Origin: an uncultured Colwellia sp.
Lineage (GTDB): Bacteria > Pseudomonadota > Gammaproteobacteria > Enterobacterales > Alteromonadaceae
Assembly (NCBI GenBank): GCA_913058395.1
Contig: CAJXQI010000003.1
Span: 62,001-126,000, forward strand
Direction of reading: 5' to 3'
Length of the DNA stretch: 64,000 nt
The notes under the pieces are model-generated. The model saw nothing but the letters and a program-made list of their open reading frames with translations, was not told the DNA's origin and did not search any database. The position numbers and the translations under genes are program-made. Numbering within the stretch: the first letter of the stretch is position 1; every line of letters starts with the position of its first letter. Shown here piece by piece: positions 12,814 through 33,395 of this stretch.

Positions 12814-13428
12814 TTGTGTTTTAGTCGTAATCATATTTTCATGAACTTTGCATACTCGATAATATTTTTTGATTAATTTCTTTTGCTCCGTAATGTTTCA
12901 CTAAGGAAATTGACGCAATGCTGCCATTGTGATTTTTCATTTTTGAATAACGATTAAAGCGAGTGTAAAAATAAAATTTTTATGAAAGTTTATTGACTGA
13001 AATAGAGCTAGCCCTTGCCAATTCTCGCTTATGTTTTTTTGTTATTTACAGGTGTAATAAAACGGTAAAAATAATTTAATAATTGTCTGGTAATAGGGCT
13101 GTTTTCTGTTAATCTCTTAGCTCGCTAAAATTTATTGCTCGTTAATTGAACAGCAAAGTTTACGCGCGGACATTTATTTATCCACATTATAAAAAAATAA
13201 TAATAAATATGTGAAAAGGATTTCAGTCTCACCTTTTTTCAATACTTACAATTAGTTATGCTTAAGTTGCCGTAAAGTTCACCAGATCTTTATGGTCTTT
13301 CCTCGTGCTTTTCAACATACTTATCCACAATTATCGTCATTTGATGTGACTAAATATAATGAAGTGCTAGAGAGAATTTGCCGATTATGGCATGCTTAAC
13401 CAATCTTTCTCCCAGTCAAAAAATTATC
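12814..13428. other. AT-rich intergenic region upstream of polA
   Basis: About 600 bases without a convincing gene. It holds two perfect DnaA boxes, an AT-rich stretch between them (around 13187-13215) and a TATAAT at 13355-13360 that could be the polA -10 element. The frame is open from a TTG at 13378 into polA. Confidence 0.6.
13178..13329 (+). promoter_or_regulatory. Two perfect DnaA boxes upstream of polA
   Basis: TTATCCACA occurs at 13178-13186 and again at 13321-13329, same strand, 143 bases apart. The second is immediately upstream of where the -35 region of the TATAAT at 13355 would lie. DnaA control of polA is the simplest reading; a replication origin is not supported because neither dnaA nor mnmG is nearby. 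Confidence 0.6.
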
Positions 13429-16179
13429 ATGCCAACTTCTGACCAATCACCGCTTATTTTAGTCGATGGTTCATCCTATTTATTCCGTGCATATCACGTG
13501 CCTTACTTACAAGCTTTGTCGACTTCTGACGGTCAACCTACTGGCGCTATAACTGGCGTATTGAACATGCTAAAAAGTCTTAAAAAAGACTATCCGAATG
13601 GCAATGTTGTCGTGATTTTTGATGCTAAAGGAAAAACCTTTCGCAATGACATGTACCCAGAGTATAAAGCTAACCGTCCACCAATGCCGGATGATTTACG
13701 CAGCCAAATTGCGCCACTGCATCAAATTATTACTGCAATGGGTTTACCGCTATTAGTAGTTGGCGGAGTAGAAGCGGATGACGTTATTGGTACGTTATCT
13801 AATCAAGCGACTGCATTAGGTATGGAAACGGTTATTTCAACTGGTGATAAAGATATGGCGCAGTTGGTTAATCAACACGTACGTTTGATTAATACCATGA
13901 CTAACGTCGAAATGGATGAAGCGGGCGTTGTAGAAAAGTTTGGCGTTCGTCCTGATCAAATTATTGATTACTTAGCCTTAATGGGTGACAAGGTTGATAA
14001 TATTCCAGGGGTAGAAAAATGTGGTCCTAAAACTGCGGTTAAATGGCTAACAGCTTACCCTACGTTAAAAGAAGTGATGGCTAATGCTGATCAAATTAAA
14101 GGTAAAGTAGGTGAAAATCTGCGTTCAGCTTTAACGCAATTACCGTTGTCGTTTGAATTGGCAACGATTAAGCTTGATGTTGAACTTGAGCAATCAGTAG
14201 CAGAAATAAAGCCTGTTGGCGCCGATTTAGAAACTTTGAAAGCATTATATGAAAAATATGAACTAAGACGATTACTCGCTGACTTAAATAATGGCGATAA
14301 AGCTGAGAAAAGCGATAGCGCGGAAGTTGAAGATAGTAGCGATGATGAAGTTGCTGAAAGTAATATTGATGTTGAGTACGACATTGTACTTAACAAAACT
14401 GATTTTCAAAGCTGGTTAGACAAGCTGACTAACTCAGAGGTATTCGCCTTTGATACTGAAACAACTAGTGTAGATTACCAAAAAGCTGAACTGGTAGGTT
14501 TATCATTTTCAGTTGAAGTAGGTAAAGCCGCTTACGTACCGGTTGCACATGATTATGAAGACGCGCCAGAGCAACTAGACAGAGACTGGGTATTGGCTCA
14601 GCTTAAGCCTTTACTAGAAAGTGAAATACAAAATAAAGTCGGACAAAATTTAAAGTACGACGCTAATGTTTTATCTCATTATGATATTGCGATGAAAGGC
14701 ATTACTTTCGATACCATGATTGAGTCGTACTGTTTAAACAGTGTTGCTACTCGTCATAATATGGATGCTTTAGCAGACAAGTACCTTGGTTATAAAACTG
14801 TGCATTTTGAAGATATTGCCGGCAAAGGTGCGAAACAGCTAACCTTTAATCAAATTGAAATTGAAAAAGCTGGGCATTATGCCGCTGAAGATGCTGATAT
14901 TACGCTACGTTTACATCAAGCCATAATGCCAAAATTAGCCAAAAGCAGTAGTCAACTTTCAGTATTTAACGAGATAGAAATGCCATTGCTACCTGTTTTG
15001 GCTCGCATGGAACAATATGGCGTGTTGATTGACTGCGATATGTTAGATCAGCAAAGTCATACGATAGGTGCACGTTTATCTGAACTCGAAATAGAAGCTC
15101 ATAACATTGCCGGAAAAAGCTTTAACCTTAGCTCTCCTAAACAGCTACAAACTATTCTATTTGAAGAGTTAAAAATTCCAGTATTAAAGAAAACCCCGAA
15201 AGGCGCGCCTTCGACAGCAGAAGAAGTGTTGCAAGAGTTGGCACTTGATTACCCGTTACCGAAAGTGATTTTAGAAAATCGAGGCTTAAGTAAATTAAAA
15301 TCTACTTATACTGATAAACTGCCTTTACTGGTTGACCCTAAAACGAATCGAGTACATACCTCATATCACCAAGCGGTAACAGCAACAGGGCGTTTATCTT
15401 CAACCGATCCTAACTTACAAAATATTCCAATCAGAAGTGAAGAAGGGCGTAAAATTCGTCTTGCTTTTATTGCACCAAAAGATCATAAAATTGTTGCGAT
15501 AGATTATTCACAAATTGAATTAAGAATAATGGCGCATTTGTCTGATGACCCAGGCTTAGTTAAAGCTTTCTCTGAAGGTAAAGATGTTCATAAGGCTACA
15601 GCAGCGGAAATATTTGCTGTGCCATTAGATGAAGTGACTAGCGATCAACGTCGTAGTGCGAAAGCGGTTAATTTTGGCTTGATTTACGGCATGTCAGCAT
15701 TTGGTTTGGCTAAACAGTTAAATGTTTCGCGTCACACTGCACAAGAGTACATGGATAAGTATTTTGAGCGTTATCCAAATGTTTCGCAATACATGGAAGA
15801 TACTCGCCAACAAGCTACCGACACTGGCTATGTTGAAACATTATTTGGTCGCCGACTTTATTTACCTGACATTAAATCTAAAAATGGTATGCGTAAAAAG
15901 GCTGCTGAGCGTGCCGCGATTAACGCGCCAATGCAAGGCACAGCTGCCGATATCATTAAAAAAGCAATGTTGTCGGTTGATGCATGGATACTTGAACAAA
16001 ATGACCCTCGTATCAAAATGACCATGCAAGTACACGATGAATTAGTTTTTGAAATTCATCAAGACATCGTTGAAAGCACGACACAAACCCTAGTTGAAAT
16101 AATGAATAATGCGGTAGAAATGAGTGTGCCGTTAATTGCAGAAGCCGGTATTGGTGAAAATTGGGAACAAGCGCATTAA
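13429..16179 (+). CDS. polA: DNA polymerase I
   Basis: 916 residues from the ATG at 13429, where MPTSDQSPLILVDGSSYLFR aligns with the family N-terminus; in-frame starts at 13378 (TTG) and 13387 (ATG) would add 17 or 14 residues and have no better ribosome site. Domains: 5' nuclease (1-290), 3'-5' exonuclease with FAFDTETT (about 325-520), and polymerase with motif A DYSQIELR, motif B RRSAKAVNFGLIYG and motif C VHDELVFE. All catalytic carboxylates are present, so it should polymerise, proofread and remove primers. In enterics engB follows polA closely; here engB is 15 kb away. It is followed by an intrinsic terminator and then an sRNA gene. Confidence 0.96.
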   Translation: MPTSDQSPLILVDGSSYLFRAYHVPYLQALSTSDGQPTGAITGVLNMLKSLKKDYPNGNVVVIFDAKGKTFRNDMYPEYKANRPPMPDDLRSQIAPLHQIITAMGLPLLVVGGVEADDVIGTLSNQATALGMETVISTGDKDMAQLVNQHVRLINTMTNVEMDEAGVVEKFGVRPDQIIDYLALMGDKVDNIPGVEKCGPKTAVKWLTAYPTLKEVMANADQIKGKVGENLRSALTQLPLSFELATIKLDVELEQSVAEIKPVGADLETLKALYEKYELRRLLADLNNGDKAEKSDSAEVEDSSDDEVAESNIDVEYDIVLNKTDFQSWLDKLTNSEVFAFDTETTSVDYQKAELVGLSFSVEVGKAAYVPVAHDYEDAPEQLDRDWVLAQLKPLLESEIQNKVGQNLKYDANVLSHYDIAMKGITFDTMIESYCLNSVATRHNMDALADKYLGYKTVHFEDIAGKGAKQLTFNQIEIEKAGHYAAEDADITLRLHQAIMPKLAKSSSQLSVFNEIEMPLLPVLARMEQYGVLIDCDMLDQQSHTIGARLSELEIEAHNIAGKSFNLSSPKQLQTILFEELKIPVLKKTPKGAPSTAEEVLQELALDYPLPKVILENRGLSKLKSTYTDKLPLLVDPKTNRVHTSYHQAVTATGRLSSTDPNLQNIPIRSEEGRKIRLAFIAPKDHKIVAIDYSQIELRIMAHLSDDPGLVKAFSEGKDVHKATAAEIFAVPLDEVTSDQRRSAKAVNFGLIYGMSAFGLAKQLNVSRHTAQEYMDKYFERYPNVSQYMEDTRQQATDTGYVETLFGRRLYLPDIKSKNGMRKKAAERAAINAPMQGTAADIIKKAMLSVDAWILEQNDPRIKMTMQVHDELVFEIHQDIVESTTQTLVEIMNNAVEMSVPLIAEAGIGENWEQAH

Positions 16180-16287
16180 CGCTTAAGATAACTTTAAGGG
16201 ATTATTGAACGCAGTTTGAAATTTATTCATTGTTTACGCGTTCTTATAATTAACACCAAATGATCCCTTCAAGGTGTGTTTCTTTAT

Positions 16288-16314
16288 AGGCCTCTACATA
16301 GAGGCCTTTTTTTT
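16288..16314 (+). terminator. Intrinsic terminator after polA
   Basis: AGGCCTC (16288-16294), six-base loop, GAGGCCT (16301-16307), then a run of T. It lies 108 bases after the polA stop and separates polA from the sRNA promoter downstream. Confidence 0.85.
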
Positions 16315-16451
16315 ATCATAAATTTTATTTACCCGTCATTTGACAGTGCCATATCGAACCCAAATTACCTACAGTTAACGCCGCTTTATTAAATGGCTTG
16401 GCTTGTTTGTGATAAAAATACGATTTAATGTAAAAAAATTACAAAATACAC

Positions 16452-16481
16452 TTTACAAACTTAGAGCTCTTACTCTATAAT
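16452..16481 (+). promoter_or_regulatory. Sigma70 promoter of the post-polA sRNA
   Basis: TTTACA (16452-16457) and TATAAT (16476-16481) with 18 bp between. Just upstream is the inverted repeat TGTAA/TTACA (16429-16443), and further upstream a CRP-like half site TGTGA at 16408-16412. The predicted start is the G at 16488, seven bases after the -10. Confidence 0.75.
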
Positions 16482-16487
16482 TGTTTT

Positions 16488-16579
16488 GTTCCTAACACGA
16501 ACGCTTGTTGTAATAATTTGTATATTTTAGCTTTCCTCATAGCTTATAGACCGATAACATTAGTTGTCGGTTTTTTTTT
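16488..16579 (+). ncRNA. Predicted ~91-nt trans-acting sRNA directly after polA (copy A)
   Basis: No reading frame is visible. Predicted structure: 5' hairpin GTTC/GAAC (16488-16502), a single-stranded AU-rich part containing TGTTGTAATAATTTG (16506-16520), a small AGCT/AGCT hairpin with loop TTCCTCAT (about 16529-16544), and terminator CCGATAAC/GTTGTCGG (16551-16570) with nine T. The UUUCCUCAU loop could pair with Shine-Dalgarno sequences, typical of Hfq-dependent sRNAs. The position after polA is that of Spot 42 (spf) in enterics and vibrios, but the Spot 42 5' sequence is not recognisable here. A homologous copy lies on the minus strand at 32982-33071. Confidence 0.75.
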
Positions 16580-16727
16580 GCCTTTAAAAAGCCGACGAAT
16601 GATTTGAGTTGATAGTTAGCAGCAAAAAGAAAAGTATGCATTGATTGGTATTGATGTAATAAAACTACAAGTCATAGCTCATTCGAAACTTAGCGATAGT
16701 CTAATGCAATTAATTTAACACTACTGC

Positions 16728-31165: not shown

Positions 31166-31816
31166 TTGTCATCTACAGCCATTCATCTGACCAAAGCGAC
31201 TTTTACCATTAGCGCACCCGATATTCGTCGTTTACCAGCAGATAGCGGCATTGAAGTGGCATTTGCCGGTCGTTCTAATGCTGGTAAGTCGAGCGCTTTA
31301 AATACGCTTACTAACCAAAGAGGCCTTGCACGTACCAGTAAAACTCCTGGTCGTACACAGCTTATTAATATTTTCGAAATTGCTGAAAACAAACGCTTAG
31401 TCGATTTACCTGGCTACGGTTTTGCTAAAGTGCCAATGGAAATGAAGAAAAAATGGCAGAAAGCTTTAGGCGAATACTTAGAAAAACGTGAATGTTTGAA
31501 AGGTTTAGTGGTACTGATGGATATCAGACATCCATTAAAAGACCTTGATATGGACCTTATTAAATGGGCTGCAGAAGGTGACTTACCAATTTTAGCCCTA
31601 CTAACTAAAAGTGATAAACTTTCTCAAGGTAAAGTAAGCGCGCAAGTATTAGCTGTTAAAAAGCAACTAGCAGACTTAAATGCCAACATTAAAGTACAAG
31701 CATTCTCGTCATTAAAACGCACAGGCTCAGACCAAGCCAATGCAGTTATTTGTGACTGGTTTCATGATGAGAACATTGAACCATTAAGTGAAGAAGAGCC
31801 ATATATTGCAGAGTAG
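31166..31816 (+). CDS. engB: Ribosome biogenesis GTP-binding protein EngB (YihA/YsxC)
   Basis: 216 residues. P-loop [14 protein letters not shown], switch region [12 protein letters not shown]3 [12 protein letters not shown]4 TKSD and G5 near FSSLKR give a complete TRAFAC GTPase of the EngB family, needed for 50S subunit assembly. TTG start at 31166 is supported by GGACC upstream and by alignment with the E. coli N-terminus. Divergent from the cytochrome c4 genes. In E. coli it lies next to polA. Confidence 0.95.
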
Positions 31817-31859
31817 TCACTAAAATAACGACTACTCTTCGAACAATAATTTATTGTTC
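31811..31859. terminator. Two hairpins between convergent engB and msrA
   Basis: GAGTAGTC (31811-31818) pairs with GACTACTC (31830-31837), and GAACAATAA (31841-31849) pairs with TTATTGTTC (31851-31859). The first overlaps the engB stop, the second the msrA stop. Confidence 0.6.
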
Positions 31860-32348
31860 TGGCAATACCCAGTCAGGTCGAGGGAAGTGGCACGTGTAAC
31901 CATAAGGCACGTGCTGCAAATAATTTTGATGTTCTGCCTCTGCTTGCCAAAAGTCTCCAACCGGAGCGACTTCTGTAACCGCTTTTCCTGGCCACAACCC
32001 TGAAGCATCTACATCAATAATAGTCTTTTCAGCGATAGCTCTTTGCTCGGTATTTGTATAGTAAATGGCTGAGCGATAGTTACTACCTCGATCATTACCT
32101 TGCTGATTTTTTGTAGTCGGATCATGTATTTGAAAAAAGAATGCCAAAATTTTTCGATACCCGATCACAGTATTTTCAAATAGTATTTCAATGCCTTCTG
32201 CGTGATCGCCTTGATTGCGATAATTCGCATTTTCAACATTGCCACCGGTATAACCAACGCGAGTTTCTGTAACGCCAGGTAGCTTGCGTATTAAATCTTG
32301 CATACCCCAAAAGCAACCGCCGGCTAAAACTGCTCGTTCAATAGCCAT
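31851..32348 (-). CDS. msrA: Peptide methionine (S)-S-oxide reductase
   Basis: 165 residues. The catalytic cysteine is in GGCFWGMQD (residue 12), with [17 protein letters not shown] and the [15 protein letters not shown] block of the MsrA family. It repairs the S epimer of methionine sulfoxide in proteins. No signal peptide, so cytoplasmic. It follows msrB by 3 bases and is surely cotranscribed and probably translationally coupled. Confidence 0.95.
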
Positions 32349-32351
32349 AAT

Positions 32352-32795
32352 TTACCCTTCTACTTGTGATAAATAAGCGTCGTAGCCTTTAGAAACCATA
32401 TCGTCGCGATGAATAAATTTCAGTGATGCAGAATTAATGCAATAACGTAAACCGCCCTGTGCGGCAGGACCATCTGTAAATACATGCCCTAAATGACTAT
32501 CACCATGAGCAGAGCGTACTTCAGTACGTACCATGCCATGGGTTTCATCTGTTATTTCATTAACGTTAATGCTTTCAATGGGCTTACTAAAGCTAGGCCA
32601 GCCACAACCTGAGTCAAACTTATCGGCTGAGGCAAATAAAGGCTCACCTGAAACAATATCAACATAAATACCGACAGCGGTATTTTCCAACAACTCGCCA
32701 GTCCAAGGGCGTTCAGTACCGCTTTCTTGCGTCACATGGTATTGCTCAGCAGTTAACGCAGCAATAGCTTCGTTCGTTTTTTTATATGATGACAT
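32352..32795 (-). CDS. msrB: Peptide methionine (R)-S-oxide reductase, zinc-less type
   Basis: 147 residues. The conserved FDSGCGWPSF, SHLGHVFTDGP and catalytic RYCINSASLKF motifs are intact. The two CxxC pairs that bind structural zinc in E. coli MsrB are replaced (VDIVSG before EPLF, and RSAHGDSHLG), so this belongs to the form without zinc. It reduces the R epimer of methionine sulfoxide. First gene of the msrB-msrA operon; AAGGAG lies before the ATG at 32795. Cytoplasmic. Confidence 0.94.
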   Translation of the reverse strand: MSSYKKTNEAIAALTAEQYHVTQESGTERPWTGELLENTAVGIYVDIVSGEPLFASADKFDSGCGWPSFSKPIESINVNEITDETHGMVRTEVRSAHGDSHLGHVFTDGPAAQGGLRYCINSASLKFIHRDDMVSKGYDAYLSQVEG

Positions 32796-32981
32796 AAGTT
32801 CTCCTTAGTGGCTTAGTGAACATTTAACAGAATATTGTTGCAGACAATGGAAAAATATTAGCGTGATAATTGCCGCTTAGCAACAGACCGGATAACTACG
32901 GAATAATTCTCGAATATGGAAGCATCACAATATTTAAATGTAAATACGAAATAAATAGCTGTAAAGGTAAATTTTAGGCAT

Positions 32982-33071
32982 AAAAAAACCGATGACAAAA
33001 GGGGTCATCGGTATAGTTAGCTTGGGGAAGCTAGAATACAAAATTAATACAACAGGTGTTCTAACGAGAAC
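32982..33071 (-). ncRNA. Predicted ~90-nt sRNA, paralogue of the post-polA sRNA (copy B)
   Basis: Transcript predicted from the G at 33071 leftward. It has a 5' hairpin GTTCT/AGAAC (33071-33058), then after three bases TGTTGTATTAATTTTGTAT, hairpin TAGCTT/AAGCTA with loop CCCC, and terminator ACCGATGAC/GTCATCGGT (33012-32988) with seven T. The same elements occur in the same order and spacing at 16488-16579, including the three-base gap between the 5' hairpin and TGTTGTA. No open frame. It lies between the esterase gene (33396) and msrB, both on the same strand. Confidence 0.75.
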
Positions 33072-33077
33072 AAATTT

Positions 33078-33107
33078 AGTATAGAGCAACAACTCTACAA
33101 AAGTAAA
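33078..33107 (-). promoter_or_regulatory. Sigma70 promoter of sRNA copy B
   Basis: On the minus strand, TTTACT (33107-33102) and TATACT (33083-33078) with 18 bp between, the same geometry as the copy A promoter. The predicted start G is seven bases after the -10, as in copy A. Confidence 0.7.
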
Positions 33108-33395
33108 GCCTTTGCTCTAAAATAATTTATCTACATGAATAGCGTAAGAATTGTGGTTTGTGGGTCTGTCACTGCGCATAATCGATGGGATTAATCTAAT
33201 GTTCCTGTATGAGCACTAATGTATAGAACAGCCATAATAACCTTAATGGCACAGTAAACCTTAAACATCTATAGAAGTGGTGCCTCTGACTAGCTGTTAT
33301 ATATCAATAGCAGGCATTTAACGTGTCTGCATATCGATAAAAAGTTACACGCTAATTCTAGAAAACTAGGTAATACTGAGTTTGTAATTTCAACA
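33108..33395. other. Intergenic stretch after the esterase gene
   Basis: Nothing beyond the sRNA promoter is recognisable here; no frame or clear hairpin. Confidence 0.4.

Follow-up and report, generated by a model that had tools for sequence, protein, structure and literature searches.

Spot 42 (spf; RF00021) is among the best-studied bacterial sRNAs, and the slot that it occupies is assumed to be conserved. The RNA runs from a hairpin through an unpaired stretch to a second hairpin and a terminator, an order shared by the copy A described below. In E. coli, Spot 42 is repressed by CRP-cAMP (PMC3295665). In Aliivibrio salmonicida, the glucose-repressed RNA VSsrna24 (~60 nt) lies 262 nt behind spf and has been termed limited to Vibrionaceae (PMC3295665). 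ErsA of Pseudomonas aeruginosa folds into three stem-loops, SL1 and SL2 being separated by domain II, which is unpaired and rich in U (PMC8575079). For HexR, a consensus of TGTAATTAAATTACA has been given and binding upstream is viewed as activating (PMC11906056); HexR targets comprise zwf, central carbon and glutamate synthesis genes, and the HexR regulons of Shewanellaceae and Vibrionales include central glycolysis and glutamate biosynthesis (PMC5343134).

The window (the whole stretch of 64,000 nucleotides that was analyzed, from an uncultured Colwellia sp.) contains two homologous predicted sRNA genes, copy A and copy B, which carry the same order of elements on opposite strands: a sigma70-type promoter, a 5' hairpin, CYTGTTGTAWTAA, a hairpin with a pyrimidine loop, and a Rho-independent terminator. 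Features are listed below, with scores from two covariance models: R1, built from 25 sequences, and R2, in which homologues from genomes G084 and G032 were added.

13378 to 16179, plus strand: polA, upstream of copy A
16429 to 16443, no strand assigned: HexR-like palindrome TGTAAAAAAATTACA, starting at -59 of the predicted start of copy A, 13 of 15 positions matching the HexR consensus
16452 to 16481, plus strand: sigma70-type promoter of copy A, TTTACA-18-TATAAT
16462 to 16477, plus strand: dyad TAGAG-N6-CTCTA of copy A, within the spacer and -10
16488 to 16579, plus strand: copy A, predicted 92-nt sRNA (R1 107.4 bits, R2 102.8 bits; member of both models)
16488 to 16502, plus strand: 5' hairpin of copy A, GTTC/GAAC
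16503 to 16528, plus strand: unpaired AU-rich stretch of copy A with the conserved CTTGTTGTAATAATTT
16529 to 16544, plus strand: hairpin AGCT-TTCCTCAT-AGCT of copy A, with the proposed seed loop
16548 to 16579, plus strand: Rho-independent terminator of copy A, stem and nine T (16571-16579)
16655 to 16669, no strand assigned: second HexR-like box TGTAATAAAACTACA, past the end of copy A; taken as the highest-scoring match within 410 nt, without a shuffle control
31166 to 31816, plus strand: engB homologue (GTPase; MMR_HSR1 match), convergent with copy B beyond msrB and msrA
31851 to 32795, minus strand: msrA and msrB, downstream of copy B
32982 to 33071, minus strand: copy B, predicted sRNA with loop CCCC (R1 73.5 bits, R2 78.7 bits)
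33078 to 33107, minus strand: promoter of copy B, TTTACT-18-TATACT (9/12 in the promoter scan)
33097 to 33082, minus strand: promoter dyad TAGAG-N6-CTCTA of copy B
33103 to 33120, minus strand: upstream element TTAGAGCAAAGGCTTTAC of copy B (B-type), resembling the element upstream of Spot 42-side homologues

Homology of the two copies is well supported. Their local alignment scores 58, as compared with a best score of 28 among 2000 mononucleotide shuffles and a best score of 28 among 4255 scanned windows, those overlapping copy B set aside. Given these controls there is little doubt about the pair, and the copies are homologous rather than similar by chance. With R2, whose alignment includes copy A (locus L001) and the B copies of a relative but not copy B itself, the next best match in the window after the two copies reaches only 18.7 bits; copy B is a member of R1, and its R1 match spans 32980-33071. 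Both copies fold better than shuffled sequences, with z-scores of -2.69 (copy A) and -5.20 (copy B).

In copy A, the -35 element TTTACA (16452-16457) and the -10 element TATAAT (16476-16481) are separated by an 18-nt spacer, the predicted start is the G at 16488, and TGTTGTA lies three bases past the GTTC/GAAC hairpin; CYTGTTGTAWTAATTT stands after this hairpin in both copies. A promoter scan recovers the copy A promoter (11/12), and the copy A terminator is recovered as well. Copy B differs in its -35 (TTTACT), its -10 (TATACT), its loop (CCCC, not CCTC), and its run of seven T. Both spacers are 18 nt long, and in both copies the dyad TAGAG-N6-CTCTA overlaps the -10; across the genome this dyad occurs with at most one mismatch only at copies A and B, and with two mismatches at six further places. 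The features of an Hfq-type sRNA (own promoter, unpaired AU-rich stretch, and Rho-independent terminator with a U tail) are thus present as predictions, and the AU-rich stretch of copy A may be an Hfq site, a second seed, or both, a possibility inferred without binding data. On the small-ORF idea, copy A contains no ATG; 55 of 96 family transcripts do contain one, and reading frames were not compared.

The original prediction had given this layout for copy A, from promoter and start G through the hairpins and TGTTGTA to the nine T, and had placed the same order at 32982-33107 on the other strand. Both claims held as described, with the differences of copy B having gone unmentioned. Its further statement that copy A lies directly after polA held with a qualification, as a different terminator-like element intervenes (stem 16288-16307), for which some relatives have similar sequence. 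The stretch 16220-16315, between polA and copy A, reads as a CACC..GGTG hairpin followed by a GGCCTC terminator with eight T; a similar element is found in G001, G009, G011, G014, and G138 and was not seen in several other genomes compared. It is possibly a third small RNA.

Copy A lies behind polA, as Spot 42 does. The GTPase gene at 31166-31816, which we take to be engB (the name draws on polA-engB synteny in relatives), is 15 kb off here, but an adjacent polA-sRNA-engB arrangement is found in G023. The block engB-msrA-msrB-copy B (31166-33107) is inverted relative to polA, at a distance of ~15 kb; in G017, G028, and others, engB is found a few hundred bases past the sRNA.

The sRNA family is not confined to this genome. 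A blastn search with copy A was positive in 22 of 60 genomes, own included, and R1, searched across the family-level group, returned 96 matches spread over 52 of 147 genomes and 18 of 52 genera; 42 of the positive genomes hold two copies, nine hold one, and one holds three. One of the 96 matches (G118/L230) does not begin like the family, and was kept among the rows but dropped from the tree. In a class-wide sample searched with R1 under strict filters, only 2 of 185 genomes were positive, our own and G017. Within the order, model matches place the family in f1, f6, and f15, three groups at family level. A promoter-plus-hairpin pattern recovered 33 stretches in named records, from Colwellia, Cognaticolwellia, Thalassotalea, and Thalassomonas, from several MAGs labelled Alteromonadaceae, Colwelliaceae, or Gammaproteobacteria, and from one record labelled Endozoicomonas sp. 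G2_1. In genus g76, the sRNA also stands in two tandem copies at L225 (G152) and in three at L228 (G175).

Scanned against Rfam, first at gathering and then to a limit of E = 10, the two copies gave weak matches only. Among these, SdsR_RyeB for copy A (22.4 bits) and Qrr and Hrs13 for copy B (20.5 and 19.3 bits) were rejected as far below their cut-offs. No title or abstract in the open-licence literature searched describes this sRNA family, and the main text of PMC5471319 contains no Spot 42, polA, or engB.

Compensatory changes back the predicted structure, chiefly the terminator. In an alignment of 57 distinct sequences, 97.7% of cells pair, and seven pairs show double changes as compared with 3.7 in shuffles; all seven sit in the terminator. 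With the two deep homologues added, the number of double-changed pairs rises to 11, of which hairpins 1 and 2 contribute two apiece. These counts are flattered, since both alignments had been fitted to the structure; inside the clade the first two hairpins are nearly invariant, and the double changes there come from few deep members. Four genomes of genus g76 (G091, G125, G152, and G175) supply another paired change, with a first hairpin resembling ATTCC/GGAAT rather than GTTC/GAAC.

That the best-covarying part is the terminator could be taken to favor a different explanation, in which these elements merely belong to polA or msr transcripts, as terminators or 3' UTR fragments that do nothing in trans, or else form a protein-titrating RNA. 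We consider this very unlikely. Each copy has its own promoter, conserved across 25 aligned loci; CYTGTTGT is conserved, unpaired, and outside the terminator; the family occupies two slots in two gene contexts; and neither copy A nor copy B contains a GGA hairpin loop.

The two slots differ in the loop that they carry. Counting as behind polA any copy within 1200 nt, and as engB/msrB-linked any copy facing engB or preceding msrB, 36 of the 96 matches lie behind polA only, 27 are engB/msrB-linked only, and five (in four genomes, G023 and members of genus g76) lie between polA and engB; for the remaining 28, neither gene is in the fetched stretch, and these are left unassigned. The loop is CCUC in 32 of the 34 readable polA-only copies (CCCC in two, two unread) and CCCC in all 26 readable engB/msrB-linked copies (one unread), as well as in all five copies between polA and engB. 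Unassigned copies divide into 19 with CCCC and nine with CCUC. Members of genus g76 have one to three CCCC copies and no HexR-like box, except for one G175 copy at 12/15. In the gene tree, the 35 polA-only copies used form one group with nine unassigned CCUC copies and one unassigned CCCC copy (G146/L222), and all other copies fall outside it; support for this group is 0.0.

These data bear on the remaining claims made at the outset. The inference of an sRNA family with at least two members in this lineage held, with 96 R1 matches in 52 of 147 genomes and compensatory changes among them; an absence of such changes among homologues, which would have counted as refutation, was not found. The proposed complementarity of a UCCUC loop to the Shine-Dalgarno sequence fits the polA-side copies, and the engB-side copies have CCCC. 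A covariance model searched over relatives and a comparison with Rfam Spot 42 had also been suggested; the former found the family, and RF00021 remained unmatched. The relation to Spot 42, which had been left open, is answered as far as sequence allows: a separate family, with copy A in the slot of Spot 42.

The evidence for this separation comes from genomes that retain Spot 42. RF00021 has no match in our own genome, and none in the window at gathering; across the order it matches in 68 of 148 genomes, 41 of them above the cut-off. Reading the region behind polA in 30 genomes revealed many with a plain Spot 42 gene (GTAGGGTACAGAGG...), and some in which an additional sRNA-like unit separates Spot 42 from engB. 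When R1 was run without filters on 27 of these 30 loci (L091, L103, and L104 omitted), the top two matches were the units behind Spot 42 in G084 (28.2 bits) and G032 (27.6 bits). The third match, L099, was as good at 27.3 bits, so R1 alone does not single out deep homologues. The G084 and G032 units have a GTCTT..AAGAC hairpin, ACCCTGTTGATTTGAAATT, a hairpin TAGCTTCTCCCC, a terminator, and a promoter element TTTTAGAGCAAATACTTC.

R2, run on the same 148 genomes of the order, placed weak same-strand matches 81-183 nt past Spot 42 in 10 genomes, as compared with ~0.002 expected; G084 was in R2, and the other nine were not. This count used 65 of 74 Spot 42 rows, omitting G232, G246, both rows of G277, and the second or third Spot 42 matches of G036, G054, G183, and G200, together with 100 R2 rows, omitting those of the R1-positive G000, G017, G027, G069, and G078. 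Eight of the 10 tandem units were read, and every one combines a promoter element of the TAGAG type with a hairpin reading TTAGCTTCTCCCC or TTAGCTTTCCCC; tandem-partner loops read UCUCCCC or UUUCCCC. Most other weak R2 matches in this search were scattered and are likely due to chance. Units of this kind were also recognized in G186, G054, and G033, by eye alone. Because homologues coexist with true Spot 42, the sRNA family is a tandem partner of Spot 42 and not Spot 42 itself. A TTAGAGYAAANRCTTTA-like element is also observed upstream of the tandem partner in several family-level groups (33103-33120, L068, L069, L106, and L171-L178).

Alternatively, copy A might be an orthologue of Spot 42 that has diverged strongly, with copy B derived from it later. 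The shared slot behind polA (directly between polA and engB for the copy in G023), the common order of hairpins, unpaired stretch, and terminator, and the similar position of the promoter box described below favor this reading. Against it stand the tandem occurrence of a homologue with true Spot 42, in 10 genomes by model and also in G032; the lack of an RF00021 match in our own genome or in the Rfam scans of either copy down to E = 10; and the five copies between polA and engB (G023 and g76), which have no HexR box of 12. We therefore regard orthology with Spot 42 as unlikely.

Membership in VSsrna24 is a further alternative, one that we judge very unlikely. In its favor are the same intergenic region, a pyrimidine-rich stretch before the terminator, and the glucose repression of that RNA. 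However, VSsrna24 is only ~60 nt long (PMC3295665); the Vibrio-like f21 loci, in a partial reading by eye, mostly show TTTCTCTCCC and a terminator before engB; no R2 match falls within 400 nt behind Spot 42 in f21 genomes; and L066 and L067 show both a TTAGAG-type promoter element and the TTTCTCTCCC element. VSsrna24 seems to be a separate neighboring gene, a view formed by eye and not fully tested. Inspection by eye of loci just before engB or behind polA (L075, L076, L077, L081, L087, L095, and L102) also showed, in several Spot 42-bearing relatives, a sigmaE-like GAACT..TCT with a stretch of the TTTTCTCTC or TGTGTGTCCC type and then a terminator behind it; judging from their position and promoter, these units could be ErsA-like or VSsrna24-like RNAs.

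Spot 42 itself is likely gone from the Colwellia-type clade. Its exact 5' end (GTAGGGTACAGAGG) is present in 59 of 147 family genomes, including a single R1-positive genome, G160, where the match is the start of an open frame (MAVNDIPPQ...) with no Spot 42 sequence after it. With this match read and excluded, the 5' end occurs in 0 of 52 R1-positive as compared with 58 of 95 R1-negative genomes. The evidence for absence is an exact 14-mer, supplemented in five R1-positive genomes by the Rfam model, and a diverged Spot 42 could escape the 14-mer: 37 R1-negative genomes also lack a match, and in at least one of these, G024, there is a Spot 42-like gene whose 5' part is altered. As the genomes are related, the pattern probably reflects one loss event and not 52. 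Two Spot 42 5'-end matches per genome were observed in G022, G076, G128, G155, and G177, which may be duplications.

The promoter of copy A carries the HexR-like palindrome at -59, one of two perfect TGTAAW5TTACA sites in the genome, a number that is no excess over the reversed-pattern control. A box of at least 12/15 at -63 to -43 is found in 29 of 36 polA-only copies (seven thus lack it in this strict window), 3 of 27 engB/msrB-linked copies, none of the five copies between polA and engB, and 6 of 28 unassigned copies; for -95 to -38, the corresponding counts are 32, 4, 0, and 7, with shuffled letters giving 1.2-1.9%. The perfect consensus occurs at -59 in G107 and G144, and at -58 at the Spot 42 gene of L095. 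Among 50 Spot 42 promoters read, the best box reaches at least 12 in 22, at least 11 in 37, and at least 10 in 41, and boxes of at least 11 are placed at -56 to -60. Many of these promoters, including enteric- and Vibrio-like ones, reach only 11, and nine of the 50 (L059, L078, L086, L087, and L171-L175) have no box of even 10. The downstream box recurs at a similar distance, with 13-14 of 15 matches, in G001, G009, G011, and G014, for five genus members in all counting G000; it is absent in G003 and in G019, which belongs to another genus.

A hexR gene is present in the genome, between zwf and pykA (PRK11302, 520.7 bits; cut-off 296). Sites within two mismatches of the HexR consensus lie upstream of zwf/hexR, gapA, gltB, and icd, and two more flank copy A. 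Genome-wide, the motif is not in excess, with 44 rows as compared with 50 for the reversed pattern, and single HexR-like sites can therefore be due to chance. Of the motif places, 28 were examined and 15 had a gene start within 350 nt; proteins were scanned only at the four carbon/glutamate genes and not at the other 11 sites. No sRNA is named as a HexR target in the relevant sections of PMC11906056, PMC5343134, and PMC3223726, and a search of open-licence literature for Spot 42 together with HexR turned up only papers on Neisseria.

The box might instead be a CRP site, an A/T-rich promoter element, or the site of an unknown regulator, with the sRNA pair remaining real; this is possible. The lack of genome-wide excess favors it, as do the CRP-cAMP repression of Spot 42 in E. 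coli and a related box (TGAAAAAAAACTACA) at the same place in enteric-like Spot 42 promoters, for which the position of the E. coli CRP site was not compared. Conversely, the palindrome has the length of a HexR site and reaches the perfect consensus at G107, G144, and the L095 Spot 42; the motif is found near zwf/hexR, gapA, icd, and gltB; and copy A is followed by a further box in five members of the genus, though not in G003 or G019. Given the Spot 42 promoters that have no box or reach only 11, the protein could be another one, CRP included.

By a modest margin, we favor the interpretation that copies A and B are paralogues encoding trans-acting sRNAs of a family other than Spot 42, and that copy A took over the slot and operator of Spot 42. 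Homology, structure, positions, box, and loop split are shown; there are no RNA data of any kind. In related bacteria, the order is polA, Spot 42, an sRNA of the copy A/B family, and engB. Copy B would keep the old engB-side place of the family and its old upstream element, and copy A would occupy the place of Spot 42, with a -59 box of the kind and position seen at many Spot 42 promoters, which in the Colwellia-type lineage resembles the HexR consensus. Both copies are inferred, without transcript data, to be transcribed by sigma70; Hfq would bind the AU-rich stretch and U tail, for which there are no binding data. The loop, UCCUC in copy A or CCCC in copy B, may pair with ribosome-binding regions of mRNAs, where it could cover GAGGA or GGGGA, respectively; no target data exist, and CYUGUUGUAAU is perhaps a second pairing region. 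If HexR controls copy A according to KDPG, an inference likewise without binding data, copy A would report sugar use via the Entner-Doudoroff route. From a HexR box placed upstream one would expect activation without sugar, with the sign remaining open. Copy B would answer to whatever reads the TTAGAGYAAANRCTTTA element.

A bolder reading, that the regulatory RNA was swapped under a preserved operator, is one that we lean slightly against when taken jointly with the seed split. In an ancestor of the clade, the tandem neighbor would have overwritten the transcribed part and core promoter of Spot 42, with the -59 box staying in register; the Spot 42 input, perhaps HexR/KDPG, would have passed to another RNA whose seed is not that of Spot 42, and the siblings would then have diverged in seed, UCCUC as compared with CCCC. 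If true, a clade dropping Spot 42 for a neighboring sRNA would show network rewiring with the input kept and the output changed. The apparently undescribed family also offers a candidate HexR-controlled sRNA, pending any binding data, and its siblings are natural material for the study of seed divergence.

Among known systems, the HexR regulon shares with the genome of copy A the consensus box and sites at zwf, central carbon, and glutamate-synthesis genes. VSsrna24 differs from the copy A/B family in that the f21 loci, as read by eye, lack the unit of 5' hairpin plus CYTGTTG. ErsA resembles the family in its location in the polA-engB intergenic region (PMC8575079); ErsA is driven by sigma22, whereas copies A and B have sigma70-type promoters instead. 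Spot 42 shares with copy A the slot behind polA, the size class, and, in many promoters, a box at about -59; in contrast, copies A and B show no sequence match to Spot 42, do not have its GTAGGGTACAGAGG 5' end, and belong to a family whose RNA coexists with Spot 42 in relatives.
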